Shown here in pieces: positions 1 to 5,678 of a stretch of 39,606 nt of DNA (within the stretch, counting starts at the first letter, position 1; every line of letters begins with the position of its first letter). The notes under the pieces are model-generated. The model was not told the origin of the DNA. It saw only the letters and a list, made by a program, of their open reading frames with translations, and did not search any database. This stretch comes from Sulfurovum sp. (GTDB lineage Bacteria > Campylobacterota > Campylobacteria > Campylobacterales > Sulfurovaceae), in contig JAMOTA010000022.1 of assembly GCA_027068435.1 (NCBI GenBank), positions 1 through 39,606 on the forward strand, written 5' to 3'. Position numbers and translations under genes: made by a program.

Positions 1-2655
1 ATTTTTCTCTTCTAAATTAGACAAAATTCCTTTTGATTCTATTTTCTCCAAAAGTGCTTTAGCTTTTCCCTCTGTGCTTGAACCATAAGACTCAGTCATA
101 ACAGGACCTTTTACAAAGGAACGATTGATTAAATCTTGGTCTAAAAAATTTTGATAGAGTGATGAAGCCTCCAATACATACTCTTTTACTATAGAAAATG
201 CCTTGCCTTTTTTAAGATGCAGTTTCCCATTTTTCAAATCTCTGTTGCCTCGTTTTATCAAACGACTTAGCTCATCTACCATAGAATCTTGTATCTCTTC
301 TAACTCTTTCTCTTCTACTTCTGTTCTAACTTTTCTCTCTACTGTGATGAGTAGCTTTTCAATCTTTTCTAACTCTTTATCTGTAAAAGTCGTTTTCCAT
401 TCTATATTTTTTAGTAGATAAGTAGTATAGTATTGTCCTGATATAAGTTTATTGTAATCTACCTCTGTCAAAGCATCTTTCACCTCGCCTAGATGATACT
501 CTGCTTTAAAAACTTTTACCTCTTTTTGAGTATAAAAGAGACCTTCTTTTTCTTTCAAACTCTCTTTTTCTTCTAAGAAATTTTCTATAGATTTTTCCAT
601 AATCTTTTTTAGTTCATCAGCCACTTCTGCATAAAAGTCACTCATCTCTAGCTCATTGTTTTCTGAATATGAGGGTAAAACATTTACCATCTTTGCCCCC
701 TCAATATCTTTAAGAAGGGCTGTTATATGCTGAAAACCATTGTTTGAACCATCTATGGCTATAGGTATGGCAGTAGTAAAGTTTTGGGTGTCATCTACAT
801 AACGCTCATACTCAAAACACCATGCCAAAAACTTAAATGGATCTCCTGCTTTTTTCCAAAAACTCTCTTTTCTATAATCTTTGGCAGAGGCTAAAATCTG
901 CTCATGTTTTTCTTTAACCCATACAACACGCTTCTCAAAGATCTCTTTATCTACTTCTCCATAGCAGTTTGCACCATGCATAAAGAACCATTTTAATCCC
1001 TCATCACTCAAAGTCTTCTCCTTAGCAAATAGCAAAAGTGACTTAGGCATGTCTCCTGATTGAGGATTTAAAAGAGTTTGTTGTGGGTAAACCCGTCCTC
1101 TAAAGTCCATACGCCATACAAAGTAAAACTGCTCAAAATCTTGCATCTCCTTAGCTATCTGAACTATGGTATTGAACCCCTGTTTATATTTAGCTATTTC
1201 ATAATAAATTTCACTATCTAGTTTAAAATTAGAAGAGTTATCACTCTTCTTTATCTCTTTCATGGCTCTCTTTATTCGTTTTTTATCACTTTGAGTAAGC
1301 TCATAATCTTTGACTTTAATAAATTTTGTTTTTTTAAAATGTTGCTCTATCTTCTCTTTAGATTGTCCATATAAATTAGCAGATAGTAGTTCACGCAAAA
1401 TCCGATAATAGGCAAAATCCACTTGATTTTTCTTTTTCATATAGTTTATATCGGAGTGATAATCTTCCAAAACCTCCAATATTTTGCTATTGATTTTAAA
1501 AGGTGTTTTCTGTAGATGATTTACAGCATCCATTACTGTTTGAGGTATAATCTTTCCAACTAAAGCTTCTCTATCTTTTTTACTAGAAGCTTTTACAAGA
1601 GAGAAGTCAAAGCGTCCATCCATCTTCTCATCAGCTAGAAAACCACCTCCATACATCTCTTTCCAGTCCAAAGGCTCTATTACCATTGGTTTATAGACCA
1701 TAGATGCACCATGAGCAATACGCTTATCGGTTTTATTCATCTTCTCTAGCAACTTACCATTAAGCTTAATATAGTTAAAGTTTTTCTCATCATTTGGTTT
1801 AGTATACTCTTTGACTATCTCTGCTTTTACAGCCAAATCTAACATCTTTTGACCTATCTCTAGCTCAGTCTTATTAGATATTAAAGCTTTAGATAGCTGT
1901 TTTATCTGTGAAAAATTATCATTTTGGTAATCTCTATAAGTTTCTTTAAGCTTATCATCCTTTAACTCTTCTATATCTCGTAAAAAACGGTAAGCTATGC
2001 GATTGTGAAGAGTCTCGCCTATATTTCCTCCAAAGCTCTGTCTGCTATTGGCAGAGTTTTCATCATCTGCATTATCGCTCTGTTGAAGTGAAAGCAGATG
2101 CACCATTGCCATATTTACAATTTCATTACTTCCAAGCTGCCAAATAGCTAGAGAAACTCTTTGAGGAGTCTCCTTAAAAATACTATTATTCTCTTCAGAT
2201 AGAGAGTTGTAGTAGTCAGCACCAATGCTAAGGTGACTCTTTAAATCTTTTAAAACTTCTAATATTGCTTCTTTTAAGTTTTTTTCATCCATTTTATTAA
2301 AATTATTTTTACTATTTTTGATTGCCTCTAAAGTTTTGTTTAAATGCTTCTTATCAAAAAGTACCCATGTTAATGGTTTAGCTACAGCATCGTGAATATT
2401 TTTATACTCTACACCTAAAAGCTTGGTATAGTGATCATTATCTTGTTGTATTACCTTACTCACGACCTCTTGTAGATACTCTAAAGTAAATTCTTCAACT
2501 ACTACAATAAATTTTTGAACATAACTTAAAAGTCCTCCTGCTTTAGCAAAACTTTGTACATTAGAACTTTTATTTGAGAGTAACTCATTAATTCTATCTT
2601 CAAGTAAATCGTAAGAAGCATTTTGTAATTTTTGTTGTTCATTTAGTAAATTCAT
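1..2655 (-). CDS. T7-like single-subunit DNA-dependent RNA polymerase (C-terminus beyond window)
   Basis: Open from an ATG at 2655 to the window edge (885 codons, no stop), so the C-terminus is missing. Hand translation gives the phage/mitochondrial-type RNAP signature in order: an EPLDWKEMYGGGF block (T7 has EPKPWTGITGGGY); MDFRGRVYP with D517, R519 and R521 (T7 D421, R423, R425); NPQSGDMPKSLLLFAKEK; HGANCYG; FKFLAWCFEYE; motif A AIDGSNNGFQHITALLKD with catalytic D635 (T7 D537); KMVNVLPS; and motif B RSFVKGPVMTESYG with R845, K849, Y857 and G858 (T7 R627, K631, Y639, G640). The D517-D635 spacing (118) matches T7 (116). The N-terminal part is about 96 residues longer than in T7, and motifs A and B are 210 apart instead of 90, so a charged Lys/Glu-rich insert of about 120 residues lies in the fingers side. 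The promoter-specificity loop and second catalytic Asp (T7 D812) should lie off the left edge. Start supported by AAGGA six bases upstream. Family assignment is very secure; promoter and role are unknown. Confidence 0.95.
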   Translation of the reverse strand, partial: MNLLNEQQKLQNASYDLLEDRINELLSNKSSNVQSFAKAGGLLSYVQKFIVVVEEFTLEYLQEVVSKVIQQDNDHYTKLLGVEYKNIHDAVAKPLTWVLFDKKHLNKTLEAIKNSKNNFNKMDEKNLKEAILEVLKDLKSHLSIGADYYNSLSEENNSIFKETPQRVSLAIWQLGSNEIVNMAMVHLLSLQQSDNADDENSANSRQSFGGNIGETLHNRIAYRFLRDIEELKDDKLKETYRDYQNDNFSQIKQLSKALISNKTELEIGQKMLDLAVKAEIVKEYTKPNDEKNFNYIKLNGKLLEKMNKTDKRIAHGASMVYKPMVIEPLDWKEMYGGGFLADEKMDGRFDFSLVKASSKKDREALVGKIIPQTVMDAVNHLQKTPFKINSKILEVLEDYHSDINYMKKKNQVDFAYYRILRELLSANLYGQSKEKIEQHFKKTKFIKVKDYELTQSDKKRIKRAMKEIKKSDNSSNFKLDSEIYYEIAKYKQGFNTIVQIAKEMQDFEQFYFVWRMDFRGRVYPQQTLLNPQSGDMPKSLLLFAKEKTLSDEGLKWFFMHGANCYGEVDKEIFEKRVVWVKEKHEQILASAKDYRKESFWKKAGDPFKFLAWCFEYERYVDDTQNFTTAIPIAIDGSNNGFQHITALLKDIEGAKMVNVLPSYSENNELEMSDFYAEVADELKKIMEKSIENFLEEKESLKEKEGLFYTQKEVKVFKAEYHLGEVKDALTEVDYNKLISGQYYTTYLLKNIEWKTTFTDKELEKIEKLLITVERKVRTEVEEKELEEIQDSMVDELSRLIKRGNRDLKNGKLHLKKGKAFSIVKEYVLEASSLYQNFLDQDLINRSFVKGPVMTESYGSSTEGKAKALLEKIESKGILSNLEEKN

Positions 2656-2667
2656 TTTGTATCCTTA
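2656..2667 (-). promoter_or_regulatory. Shine-Dalgarno overlapping a stop codon: couples nuclease and RNAP translation
   Basis: On the minus strand the nuclease gene ends in AAT TAA and the same bases continue as TTAAGGATACAAAATG. The AAGGA ribosome binding site (2666-2662) therefore shares bases with the TAA stop (2667-2665), and the RNAP ATG follows after a 6-base spacer. This fixes the RNAP start and indicates co-translation of the two genes from one mRNA. Confidence 0.8.
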
Positions 2668-3807
2668 ATTTATATGAAAAAAATTTCGAACTAAGTTTTG
2701 AAATTTAACAACATTTACTTCTGACTCATGATAGACAGAAACTCCTGCTAGTCTTGCTCTTCTTAATGTTGAGTGTTGAAAGTTACTAGATACTTTTGTT
2801 CCCATATATGACTCTTTAGACTTCGAAGAGATATTAGCAATTATAGCTTTTGAGGATTTTCCAAAATAGTCTATGATAGCATCGTATTTATATATCATCT
2901 CCAATCCCTCTAAATTTTGAGAAAACTTACACTCTACTGTAAAAATACGATTATTGTGTATGAGAAGAATATCAAATTCATTCATAACTCTATACTGATC
3001 TTTAGGTTCTATATTTTTATCGTCAAAATCTATCTTTACACCCATAAGTATATCATCTGGATTTAACTCTTCACAAAGCCAAAAAATATACTCTTCAAAA
3101 AGATCACCTTGAAGTACTTTTTGTTGAGAAGGGATAAGTTTATAATTTTTATCTAAAATCTTTAGTTTATATAGGATTTGCAACATATCCTCTACCATAG
3201 ATAAATTAAAATTATTTTTATAACCAAAATGCTTATCAATAATAGTTTTTCTTACTTTTTTAAATAATGACTCATTTTTATACAGTGAAAAAATATGTTT
3301 TTTTCTTGATTGAAGTTGTGTTTTCGTCTGTTTTGAAACTATATTATAATCAAGTAGTGTCAAATAACTGTCAATATCTATGTGGCTATCTAGCTTTGAA
3401 GTATTCATACTACCATTTGGTTCAATTATGTGCAGATCATTGTCAAAGTGGTCATAACTAAGTACTTTTCCACCTTCATTGTGTATGAGTCTTGTCAAGA
3501 TTATGGTCATAGCAGGGTAGCCATCTGTAGCATTTAGCCAAAGTTCACTTTCGTTGTTAAACTGTTTTTTTGCTACGGTATTTATATCTAAAGCACTATC
3601 TTCATTTGTTGTAATAATTTTTATATACCAATCAAGGCTATTTTTATCTGAAAATGTATGCATCCCTTTTTGAAGTATTTTAGCTCTATCATAGTTAGAT
3701 GGATCATCATCACAAAGTAGTACGTGTTGTTTTATTTTGTCTTTATATGCGTATAATACGGGGATAATACGAGAAATATCTTCTCCAACAATGCTTAGTA
3801 GTGTCAA
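2665..3807 (-). CDS. CARF-domain nuclease of the Card1/Can2 (DUF1887) type
   Basis: 380 residues, close to full length for Card1. The N-terminal half looks like a CARF (Rossmann-like) sensor: LLSIVGEDISRIIPVLYAY at the start, then LWLNATDGYPAM at 89-100 where CARF proteins normally carry NxTGGTKxM. After a helical linker (about 155-230) comes a PD-(D/E)XK nuclease: GDLFEEY at 234-240 (helix Glu), EFDILLI with D279, and FTVECKF with E292 and K294. Family knowledge: Card1/Can2 enzymes are activated by cyclic oligoadenylate from type III CRISPR and then cut DNA and/or RNA. All nuclease residues are present, so activity is likely; the ligand motif is degenerate, so the ligand may differ. The start is TTG at 3807 with AAGGAA seven bases upstream. 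It is the first gene of a pair with the RNAP and begins 29 bp after mrdA; that spacer holds a TATATAAA stretch that could be a weak -10. No cas gene or CRISPR is visible. Confidence 0.85.
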   Translation of the reverse strand: MTLLSIVGEDISRIIPVLYAYKDKIKQHVLLCDDDPSNYDRAKILQKGMHTFSDKNSLDWYIKIITTNEDSALDINTVAKKQFNNESELWLNATDGYPAMTIILTRLIHNEGGKVLSYDHFDNDLHIIEPNGSMNTSKLDSHIDIDSYLTLLDYNIVSKQTKTQLQSRKKHIFSLYKNESLFKKVRKTIIDKHFGYKNNFNLSMVEDMLQILYKLKILDKNYKLIPSQQKVLQGDLFEEYIFWLCEELNPDDILMGVKIDFDDKNIEPKDQYRVMNEFDILLIHNNRIFTVECKFSQNLEGLEMIYKYDAIIDYFGKSSKAIIANISSKSKESYMGTKVSSNFQHSTLRRARLAGVSVYHESEVNVVKFQNLVRNFFHIN

Positions 3808-3836: not shown

Positions 3837-5678
3837 CTAGTGAGTTATATTAACTTTCTCTTTACTCTCTTCTTCAACCTTCTCCTTAAAATAATCATTC
3901 TTATACAACCATTTATAAATATCTGCTGCTATAGGTCCTGATGTACTTCCTCCGTGTCCTCCATGCTCAACAAGAACAGTTACGATATATTGAGGGTTTT
4001 TGTAGGGTGCGTAGGTGGTTATCCATGCGTGTGACCTACGATAATACTTTAACTCATCTTCTTTAAGACGTGTTTTTGTTGACTGAGGGATAGAAACAAC
4101 TTGTGATGTACCTGTTTTACCTGCAACCTTAATAGATAAATTACTCATTGTTTTAAAGGCTGTACCAGATTTTAGATTACAGACATCATACATACCTTTT
4201 CTAATTTCAGATAAATAATATGGGTCAAATTTCATAGGAACTATTATCTCTTTTTTAGGTGTTTTATCTATTGTTTTAACAATACTAGGTGTTACAAGAT
4301 TAGAAGTGGCAATAAGTGCTGTATAACGTGTAATTTGTAGTGGTGTTACAAGGTCATACCCCTGCCCTATGGAAGCGATAACTGTTTCACCCATATACCA
4401 TGGTTGATTAAAACGTTTTTTCTTCCACTGTTTGTCAGGTATGACGCCATGATACTCACGTGGGAGATCGACACCTGTTTTAACACCTAGTCCAAAAGAG
4501 CGTAACTGTCTTGCCATAGCGTCTATGCCTATTTTTAAACTCTTATTATAAAAATAGACATCACAACTCTCTCTAATAGCACGACGTAAATCAACTTTTC
4601 CATGTCCCCATCGAGCCCAACATCTAAATTTATGTTTGCTTTTTCCAAGAGTTATATGACCATTACAATACTCTGATGTACCTAAAATATTGTGTTGTTC
4701 ATTTTCAAAAGCCAGTGCCATTCCCATTTTAATCGTTGAACCAGGTGGATATGTTCCATGAATAAATTTATTAGTAAAAGGGTGTGCTAAATCACTTTGA
4801 AGTGCTTTCCAATTTTTAGAGCTAATACCTCCAACAAAAAGATTAGGGTCATATGATGGATAACTTACTGCTGCTAAAATTTCCCCATTAGTTTTCATAA
4901 CAATAGCAACACCAGTATTATTTCCAAAACGCTTATAAATCATCTGTTGTAGATTAATATCAATATTTATCTTTAAATTTTTATTATCTTTAGGCTGTTC
5001 TTTTTCTAAGATATCTACTACTTTATTTGTTGCTGTTACTTTACTTATCTCATAACCTAACTTACCTTGAAGTACATAATTATAGTATTTTTCTAAACCA
5101 CTTTTTCCTATTTTTCCTATCTCTTTAACCACTCTATCTTTATTATTCTCTTTTTTGTTGGATCTTCCTGTATAACCAACAATATGAGCACCATATTTAC
5201 CATAAGGGTAATAACGTTTTGTCTCTGCTTCTATTTTTATCTCATCATAAAGACTTAACTTTGGATACGCACCCATCATATCTGGGTAATGTATAAAGTT
5301 TACCACTTTAATATACTCATGATTATAATATGAATCATGTTTATTATAAACTTTCAACATTACAGTTTTATTAAGATCTGGAAAAGTTTCTATTAGTTTA
5401 TCTACAATGTTTTCTAATTTATTTGCTTTATGGCTTTTCTTCTTTAACTTCAAATGAGGCATAATAGAGATAGAAAAACCTATTTGGTTCATCGCCAACA
5501 GATTGCCATTTGTATCTACTATCTCCCCTCTTACAGGTTTTATGAAGCGTTTTCTTTCTATATTGTCTTTCGCTAAACCTTCATAGTAAAAATTAGACTT
5601 AATGCTTACATGGTAAAGTCTAGCCATCATACCTGCCCAAATAAGTAGAAAAATTATAATAACAATTTTATATTTCAT
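3837..5678 (-). CDS. mrdA: Penicillin-binding protein 2, peptidoglycan DD-transpeptidase
   Basis: 613 residues, the usual size for class B PBP2. It cross-links peptidoglycan during cell elongation with RodA/MreBCD, anchored in the inner membrane. One N-terminal membrane helix (about 4-20) is followed by the dimerisation domain (RKRFIKPVRGEIVDTNG at 42-58) and the transpeptidase domain. The three catalytic motifs are intact: S314-T-I-K (PPGSTIKMG), S371-C-D (ESCDVYFYN) and K521-T-G-T (AGKTGTSQ). Its ATG overlaps the end of the upstream mreD-like gene by 4 bp (ATGA), so the two are coupled. It is the last envelope gene of the long minus-strand operon before the accessory nuclease/RNAP pair. Confidence 0.95.
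   Translation of the reverse strand: MKYKIVIIIFLLIWAGMMARLYHVSIKSNFYYEGLAKDNIERKRFIKPVRGEIVDTNGNLLAMNQIGFSISIMPHLKLKKKSHKANKLENIVDKLIETFPDLNKTVMLKVYNKHDSYYNHEYIKVVNFIHYPDMMGAYPKLSLYDEIKIEAETKRYYPYGKYGAHIVGYTGRSNKKENNKDRVVKEIGKIGKSGLEKYYNYVLQGKLGYEISKVTATNKVVDILEKEQPKDNKNLKINIDINLQQMIYKRFGNNTGVAIVMKTNGEILAAVSYPSYDPNLFVGGISSKNWKALQSDLAHPFTNKFIHGTYPPGSTIKMGMALAFENEQHNILGTSEYCNGHITLGKSKHKFRCWARWGHGKVDLRRAIRESCDVYFYNKSLKIGIDAMARQLRSFGLGVKTGVDLPREYHGVIPDKQWKKKRFNQPWYMGETVIASIGQGYDLVTPLQITRYTALIATSNLVTPSIVKTIDKTPKKEIIVPMKFDPYYLSEIRKGMYDVCNLKSGTAFKTMSNLSIKVAGKTGTSQVVSIPQSTKTRLKEDELKYYRRSHAWITTYAPYKNPQYIVTVLVEHGGHGGSTSGPIAADIYKWLYKNDYFKEKVEEESKEKVNITH

Follow-up and report, generated by a model that had tools for sequence, protein, structure and literature searches.

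Phages, mitochondria, and plastids are the known homes of single-subunit RNA polymerases. An enzyme of this type encoded directly behind a CARF nuclease in a bacterial chromosome raises the question of which genes it reads and what purpose they serve. We have addressed this question for contig JAMOTA010000022.1 of a Sulfurovum assembly (GCA_027068435.1), which in its full length of 39,606 nucleotides is referred to here as the window (contig C22 of our genome G000, an assembly of 59 contigs and 2.0 Mb). Our explanation, to which we assign a probability of roughly 0.62, is that the pair at the left end of the window represents one end of a type III-B clustered regularly interspaced short palindromic repeats (CRISPR) locus, where a resident T7-type polymerase transcribes an adjacent array of tiny genes encoding probable antiviral effectors. 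As to type, the locus is best read as a III-B CRISPR locus of the S-adenosylmethionine-AMP (SAM-AMP) kind that has a transcription circuit of its own, the likely products of which are effector peptides. We are more confident of the link to CRISPR and of the private promoter-like sites than of the function of the peptides.

The gene pair and its truncated flank

Both genes occupy the minus strand. The gene at 1..2655 encodes the N-terminal 885 of approximately 1078 residues of a T7-type single-subunit RNA polymerase, as judged from matches to Pfam RNA_pol (E 1.1e-40), the PHROG RNA polymerase family (E 8e-106), and T7 RNA polymerase in the PDB (E ~4e-44). A database protein of 1078 residues, P0028, is 97% identical to it over these 885 residues. 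The motif DGSNNG (736..753) surrounds the first catalytic Asp, which we take to be the Asp of T7 motif A; it is unchanged in 21 aligned relatives and its T7 counterpart reads DGSCSG. The second motif, RSFVKGPVMTESYG (82..123), presumably motif B with its Lys and Tyr, retains K, VMT, and SYG in the same relatives. The catalytic Asp, Lys, Tyr, and Asp motifs are invariant in the 21 relatives; the window holds the first two motifs, and the last (HDS) is seen in P0028.

The upstream gene (2665..3807) has a TTG start and encodes 380 residues. It matches Pfam Card1_endonuc (E 2.4e-7), CARF_Card1 below the cut-off (E 0.004), and the PADLOC model CARF4--CARF_PDDEXK (E 2.4e-57), and its predicted structure, with a mean predicted local distance difference test score of 94.5, retrieves VC1899 (1e-17), Can2 (5e-17), and Card1 (3e-16) in Foldseek. 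Residues N276, E277, D279, E292, and K294, in a stretch NEFD...ECK (2926..2982) that we assume to be the active site from its PD-(D/E)XK motif, are unchanged across 51 aligned sequences. By profile and predicted fold, the protein is a Can2/Card1-type nuclease with both CARF and PD-(D/E)XK domains, and as such not unusual in itself. The original prediction, which named this nuclease and a T7-like polymerase as neighbors, was therefore right on both identities. It had also proposed their translational coupling, which is plausible: the CARF stop codon (2665-2667) and the 9-bp gap before the polymerase ATG together span only 2656..2667, and an AAGGA ribosome-binding-like word overlaps the stop.

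Because the contig ends inside the polymerase, the left flank of the pair is missing, and a full-length relative used as query recovered no further piece of the enzyme in the G000 bin. No repeat array of at least 24 nt was found in the window, and the Cas1 and Cas10-palm families have no match in it, its other open reading frames (ORFs) not having been screened for cas or phage genes. The surroundings of the polymerase must thus be sought in relatives.

A cellular clade of phage-type polymerases

A single-protein search matched the polymerase in three of 100 genomes, the window's own included, and a profile of 21 polymerases matched five of the 398 genomes of the order (G000, G011, G099, G104, and G428). 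Scanning of genome contigs yielded 16 polymerase loci, nine of which (L035-L043) fall in the window's clade, by at least 53% identity for L035-L040 and by a tree of 130 polymerases for L041-L043, and seven outside it (L044-L050). Three of these are the loci of G099 (L035, also L023), G104 (L037), and G011 (L040, also L022). In the tree, the window's clade comprises 72 tips with a support of 1.0 and includes none of the nine viral or prophage tips. All 17 polymerases linked to the 77-residue array protein described below lie inside it, namely 15 among the matches listed (linked through an identical length of the longest contig, by eye, among the best 120 of 148 and 120 of 271) plus L042 and L043. 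The best match in viral contigs reaches 33% identity. For phage records, identity is 26-28% in the ten best, and of the 2570 that match not one covers 80% of the query; four plasmids match at 25-31%. On these sequences, the clade is cellular, without a viral tip in this tree.

The flanks agree with this placement. Ten larger ORFs flanking the polymerases of L022, L039, and L043 have no match to PHROG head, packaging, connector, or tail families; four lack any PHROG match, and six match families of unknown function, a kinase, or a metallo-phosphoesterase/repair exonuclease, the repair-exonuclease match being weak (3e-6). Phage genes were found at all seven non-clade loci, where one or two ORFs per locus, chosen for their phage-like look, were tested; other flanks were read by eye. 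An ordinary prophage flank, which the original prediction had named as fatal to its idea, is consequently not what these three relatives reveal, and a prophage origin of the clade polymerase is not supported by the tree, the 26-28% identity to phage records, or the ten flanking ORFs, among which no structural gene was recognized. The G428 enzyme (826 residues) lies among ORFs that by eye resemble a T7-like prophage (L189). The Gracilibacteria label of L041 (JAMOTU010000042.1), which carries the polymerase and a Cmr set, is doubtful: its polymerase frame lacks an in-frame TGA, for which reason the contig is probably misbinned.

A type III-B CRISPR setting in relatives

To compare genomic contexts, 28 loci were searched by tblastn with 18 query proteins, of which the G099 locus supplied 14. 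In G099, the order runs from a transposase (by eye) through the polymerase, the 77-residue gene on the opposite strand, NrN-CorA, Cmr1, and Cas10 to an 87-residue gene, Cmr3, Cmr4, Cmr5, Cmr6, a reverse transcriptase, Cas1, Cas2, and a 31-copy repeat array, with Cmr1, Cmr4, Cmr5, and Cmr6 named by position. Pfam matches in this locus include Cas10-Cmr2_palm2 (E 3e-29), Cmr2_N, Cas_Cmr3, and RAMPs, in addition to CorA, RVT_1, Cas1, and Cas2. Cmr or Cas10 genes occur in the available sequence of five of the nine clade loci (L035, L037, L039, L041, and L043), homologues being found in the latter four as well as partly in a further locus, L196; L036 and L038 end inside NrN-CorA, and the short contigs of L040 and L042 end without a cas gene. 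With Cas10/Cmr2 and Cmr RAMP genes together, the relatives' loci are of type III-B by gene content. Residues 3-234 of the L039 CorA protein match NrN in the PDB (E 1.2e-36) and its CorA part matches Pfam (E 5e-8), and these loci accordingly carry, by homology, an NrN phosphodiesterase with CorA, a marker of the SAM-AMP branch. Such a fusion has been described in Aliarcobacter butzleri and related species as part of SAM-AMP type III-B systems (Chi et al. 2023, PMC10600005).

The antiviral setting suspected at the outset is thus borne out in relatives, and so is the recurrence of the pair, for the CARF gene directly precedes the polymerase in the window, L022/L040, L036, L037, and L039. The notion of a CRISPR-free module did not survive, given NrN-CorA, Cmr genes, reverse transcriptase, Cas1, and Cas2 around the relatives' polymerases. 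The cas genes looked for in the left flank exist in five of nine relatives' loci; the window contig itself ends in the polymerase. That the window's own copy belongs to a CRISPR locus is extrapolated from these relatives.

In best segments, NrN-CorA is 57-65% identical to that of G099 in L036, L037, L038, L039, L043, and L196 and 47% in L041, and in the polymerase-free loci L027 and L028 only 38%, in the CorA part only. Cas10, by comparison, is 37-51% identical in L037, L039, L041, L043, and L196 and 70-75% in L027 and L028. This pattern suggests that the polymerase and NrN-CorA keep each other's company while the Cmr complex differs, the cassette apparently moving between Cmr backbones.

The nuclease was matched in 14 of 100 genomes, the window's own included. 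The CARF genes before the polymerase form two divergent lineages, the window's protein being only 27-31% identical to those of L036, L037, L039, and L022, and in L038 an AAA-ATPase/PDDEXK_9 protein takes this position; for both reasons, the CARF gene is, on comparative grounds, an exchangeable part of the locus. In L043 it lies further upstream, and L035 starts with the transposase.

Several further observations concern these loci. In L024 (G005:C175), where the CARF nuclease shares 73% identity with that of the window, the place of the polymerase is taken by a protein that by eye is NERD/helicase-like, and the start of NrN comes next. Upstream of the CARF gene, words of the form AAAGTTCGCAAACC and their inverse are repeated in L036 (1-577) and L039 (8500-8816), with only a similar inverse in L037 (1-60); these are possible operators or insertion-sequence ends. 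Within the Cmr gene set of L196 (G278:C82, 3619-5952), small ORFs resembling nucleotidyltransferases, each with a partner ORF, separate Cmr1 from Cas10 and recur further downstream; we take them to be inserted genes of toxin-antitoxin type. The reverse transcriptase frame of G099 looks interrupted (L023, 12648-15155): ORFs of 212 (reverse transcriptase) and 493 (Cas1) residues lie approximately 390 bp apart, with a repeated stretch in the gap, and the reverse transcriptase match of L037 is also split.

An array of tiny genes beside the polymerase

Between the polymerase and NrN-CorA lies an array of approximately 0.75 to 1.7 kb, found upstream of the polymerase in L042 and L043, that comprises several units on the opposite strand; in L022 and L042 the contig breaks off within it. 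It adjoins the polymerase in eight of nine clade loci and is, by this comparison, a steadier partner than the exchangeable CARF gene; it lay outside the sequence on which the original prediction was based. A typical unit consists of a 24-nt site, a leader of approximately 70-86 nt, a ribosome-binding-like word, and a short ORF; only ORFs with such a word were collected, and some lack a site of their own. Five families were distinguished by eye: A (72-77 residues, MHITYHAxERFLQRVF...), B (20-28 residues, hydrophobic, MIPIPxCAQ...), C (13-19 residues, MANPLCELICIILxx), D (8-11 residues, MGICICFP), and E (17-23 residues, ...FLPPLxWL), the last of which lacks its own site in most loci.

In five, four, and four loci, respectively, picked for gap-free alignment, the ratios of nonsynonymous to synonymous differences (pN/pS) are 0.24 for family A, 0.38 for B, and 0.29 for C, and 0.47-2.27 in shifted frames. 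These three families are under purifying selection. The most hydrophobic 15-mers of four family B peptides have Kyte-Doolittle means of 1.5 to 2.6, and such peptides look membrane-active. Family A, the 77-residue protein, has a predicted fold that is RelE/ParE-like and toxin-like; no significant Foldseek or sequence match to RelE/ParE was obtained, and no antitoxin gene was recognized. Of 38 viral stretches fitting a family A pattern, none was confirmed as a homologue. As a pure marker of the polymerase, the family was rejected, 12 of the 15 matching genomes holding distant forms without the enzyme. Distant homologues occur in clusters at L178, L179, L180, L183, and L187, several of which, as read from the sequence, also hold an AAA ATPase and membrane ORFs resembling ZorAB; the family is perhaps a small protein common to several defence systems.

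The leader carries a first hairpin with a UGWRAN loop, a form fixed after reading the leaders, and a middle stem pair that is C-G, U-A, or G-C. In 18 units, 52 of 54 inner stem cells are paired, which none of 5000 shuffles reaches, a result that is not a probability because the units are related. Hairpins of this shape number 34 on the array strand and zero on the other strand, compared with eight in 108 kb of flanking DNA, both strands counted. Of nine arrays, only that of L196, with its 315 bp, has none. A second leader hairpin is visible; having been picked by best stem, it is counted as no evidence. Rfam gave no matches in eight loci. In the two loci scanned, terminator-like hairpins end the array ahead of the polymerase stop, with approximately one expected by chance. 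No clear excess of sigma-70-like sites was found in the array (six versus 4.6 expected in L037, five versus 5.0 in L039).

Promoter-like sites confined to the array in five genomes

The pattern TTYCCCAASTRGTGACTAAAGARA with at most three mismatches finds 17 sites in five of ten genomes, all within the array, and its reversed control none. The genomes lacking it are G000, where the array is not in the bin, G011, which has the variant TTTCCCAACCCTTCACTAAAGAAG, G440 (L041), and G441 and G442, which have variant cores (the L042 pattern recovers two of four sites listed from cores picked after reading). Across the 398 genomes, there are 12 sites in eight genomes: six known, one in G278 with one mismatch, and five with three mismatches. 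All seven sites with zero or one mismatch fall in such arrays. The G278 locus (L196) was detected by its site alone; at this contig end, the site adjoins a family C ORF and the start of a family B-like ORF and is followed downstream by NrN-CorA, Cmr1, and Cas10. Its context is a site-based prediction come true.

On a matrix of nine annotated T7 promoters, 18 sites from L022, L023, and L036-L039, with one-base shifts also allowed, rank 5 to 126 among 12,762-46,442 positions at zero shift, the ranks not being independent since the sites share one motif. A 20-nt form of the site has no exact match in viral contigs. One site type is shared by L023 and L036-L039, a CCCTTC type is found in G011, and a ACATATAG-like type in L042 and L043, the polymerases of which share 29 and 34% identity with the window's relative. 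At the position of T7 R746, which we take to be the promoter contact of the specificity loop, the enzymes of L023, L036-L039, and P0028 have K, and the G011 enzyme has R; being a single case, this correspondence between loop residue and site type is merely suggestive. In five whole genomes, no site lies outside the array, none preceding cas genes or CRISPR arrays, and a role as promoters of these was rejected. We infer that the polymerase reads the array sites, given the type of enzyme, the T7-like core, the finding of both side by side and of the sites nowhere else in the five genomes, and the fact that a different enzyme comes with a different site. That the array peptides are effectors we infer at one further remove, from the membrane-active look of family B, the toxin-like predicted fold of family A, and the neighboring NrN-CorA and CARF nuclease, which are known effector types.

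The surroundings of the window pair

A penicillin-binding-protein-2-like gene (3837-5678, label by eye) lies on the same strand 29 bp before the CARF gene, and in G011 the CARF gene likewise lies 29 bp behind a transporter-like gene; the cassette therefore seems to ride behind housekeeping genes. The window's genome also contains three other CRISPR arrays with Cas1, on contigs C27, C30, and C47 (L134, L136, and L135): one array by type I-like genes (38 copies), one with a 1193-residue Cas9-like protein, and a third with a 286-residue Cas1 on a 4-kb contig, the type names being read from ORFs.

Alternative explanations and the weight of the evidence

Could the array exist for its RNA rather than its peptides, supplying a functional hairpin in bulk to the reverse transcriptase, the Cmr complex, or the 77-residue protein, with tiny ORFs that only protect or mark the transcript? 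The near-constant UGWRAU-type loop, the covarying and strand-specific stem, and the reverse transcriptase and Cas1 genes in the same locus would fit; this is nonetheless unlikely, as the tested ORF families keep their amino acids while synonymous sites vary, in the coding frame only, ribosome-binding-like words precede the ORFs, and Rfam offers no match. The same reverse transcriptase and Cas1 genes, present where the flank is long enough, could instead speak for a polymerase in the service of the CRISPR system itself, which would feed the RT-Cas1 adaptation module by transcribing invader DNA, the CRISPR array, or the cas genes. The confinement of sites to the tiny-gene array in five whole genomes makes this quite unlikely, a point that bears on a site-dependent mode and not on a site-independent one acting on invader DNA or RNA.

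The resemblance of the site to annotated T7 promoters admits another reading, in which the array is a trap: the polymerase of a T7-like phage fires the sites, the peptides kill the cell, and the resident enzyme amplifies the response. We consider this very unlikely, since the sites vary between loci in step with the resident polymerase and their pattern lacks an exact match in viral contigs. Least probable of all is a domesticated or parasitic phage remnant hitch-hiking in a defence island, to which the phage-type enzyme family and the prophage-like G428 locus in the same order lend some color; against it stand a clade without viral tips, the contrast between the ten hallmark-free flanking ORFs of three clade loci and the seven non-clade loci, catalytic motifs invariant in 21 relatives, and the conservation of site, ORFs, and hairpins across loci.

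For the explanation that we favor, in which the resident polymerase transcribes the array as part of a III-B locus, a number of observations are unfavorable. NrN-CorA was not found in the window's bin, where Cas10 gave only a sub-cut-off match in a response-regulator-like ORF, and no cas gene is known on the window contig (Cmr genes other than Cas10 were not searched in its bin). All loci come from metagenome assemblies, none from an isolate. The G011 polymerase frame is broken, interrupted by N, and no array was seen on L041. Twelve genomes that lack this polymerase have members of the 77-residue family at 32-42% identity, and the pN/pS values cover families A, B, and C, in four or five loci that can be aligned gap-free. 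Among the sites, those with three mismatches (G353, G201, G116, G079, and G036) compare with nine reversed-pattern hits, the 18 scored sites rank less well on a matrix of seven T3 promoters (25 to 1525), and six sites of L042 and L043, which have another core, rank 458 to 3233 on the T7 matrix. The probability assigned to the whole explanation reflects the reliance on metagenomes, the cut window locus, the broken G011 enzyme, the array-less L041, and the distant family A genes elsewhere.

A proposed effector circuit

In the circuit that we propose, host RNA polymerase would make the CARF-polymerase message, and the T7-type polymerase would then read the array sites, each transcript consisting of a 5′ hairpin leader and either a short hydrophobic peptide or the 77-residue protein. 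During infection, these products may halt growth or harm the membrane, beside the SAM-AMP-type NrN-CorA and the CARF nuclease, and a private polymerase would keep this arm running after phage takeover of the host enzyme. Infection, a CRISPR signal, or mere polymerase level are candidate triggers. Transcription of the array toward the polymerase 3′ end, as arranged in most loci, might damp the polymerase by antisense RNA. That the locus is in this manner an immune system with its own orthogonal transcription, the private promoters of which release a burst of toxic micropeptides without host polymerase, would constitute an effector arm not described before; we advance it tentatively, at somewhat less than even odds.

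Relation to known systems

NrN-CorA and CARF nucleases are effector types of type III immunity, according to two studies (PMC10600005, PMC11229360). The relatives' loci resemble the SAM-AMP type III-B systems, as described there (PMC10600005), in their Cmr genes, Cas10, and fused NrN-CorA, and carry reverse transcriptase and Cas1 genes too; what sets them apart is that NrN-CorA is accompanied by a T7-type polymerase, by promoter-like sites in several copies, and by tiny ORFs. In L027 and L028, CARF, CorA, and Cmr genes occur without polymerase, sites, or tiny ORFs. With phages T7 and T3 (NC_001604, NC_003298), the loci share a single-subunit polymerase, an ACTAAAG promoter core, and serial promoters, and the leader hairpins may be likened to stem-loops, annotated as RNase III sites, that come after some of the promoters in T3. 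In contrast to these phages, the polymerase is chromosomal, lies in a CRISPR locus without recognized phage structural genes, is less than 30% identical to the ten best phage records, and has a predicted regulon of a handful of tiny ORFs.

We found no paper in which a type III CRISPR locus is described as containing a T7-type polymerase, a statement that excludes supplements and falls short of proving absence from print. The term "RNA polymerase" does not occur in the main texts of PMC12669027, PMC11229360, PMC10600005, and PMC12255297. Within the available text of PMC7515739, which covers both subjects, the polymerase is the phage's own single-subunit enzyme, and of the two mentions in that of PMC5513706, one concerns an RNA-virus polymerase and the other stands in the title of a reference about the replication of RNA by T7 polymerase.

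The polymerase with its candidate promoter, the small peptides, and natural variants with differing promoter cores provide material for tests, and the polymerase/site pairs may yield new orthogonal expression tools. If the explanation is true, a bacterial chromosomal clade of these polymerases, with candidate promoters of its own in a CRISPR locus, would put the enzyme to a new use and add a new layer to type III immunity.

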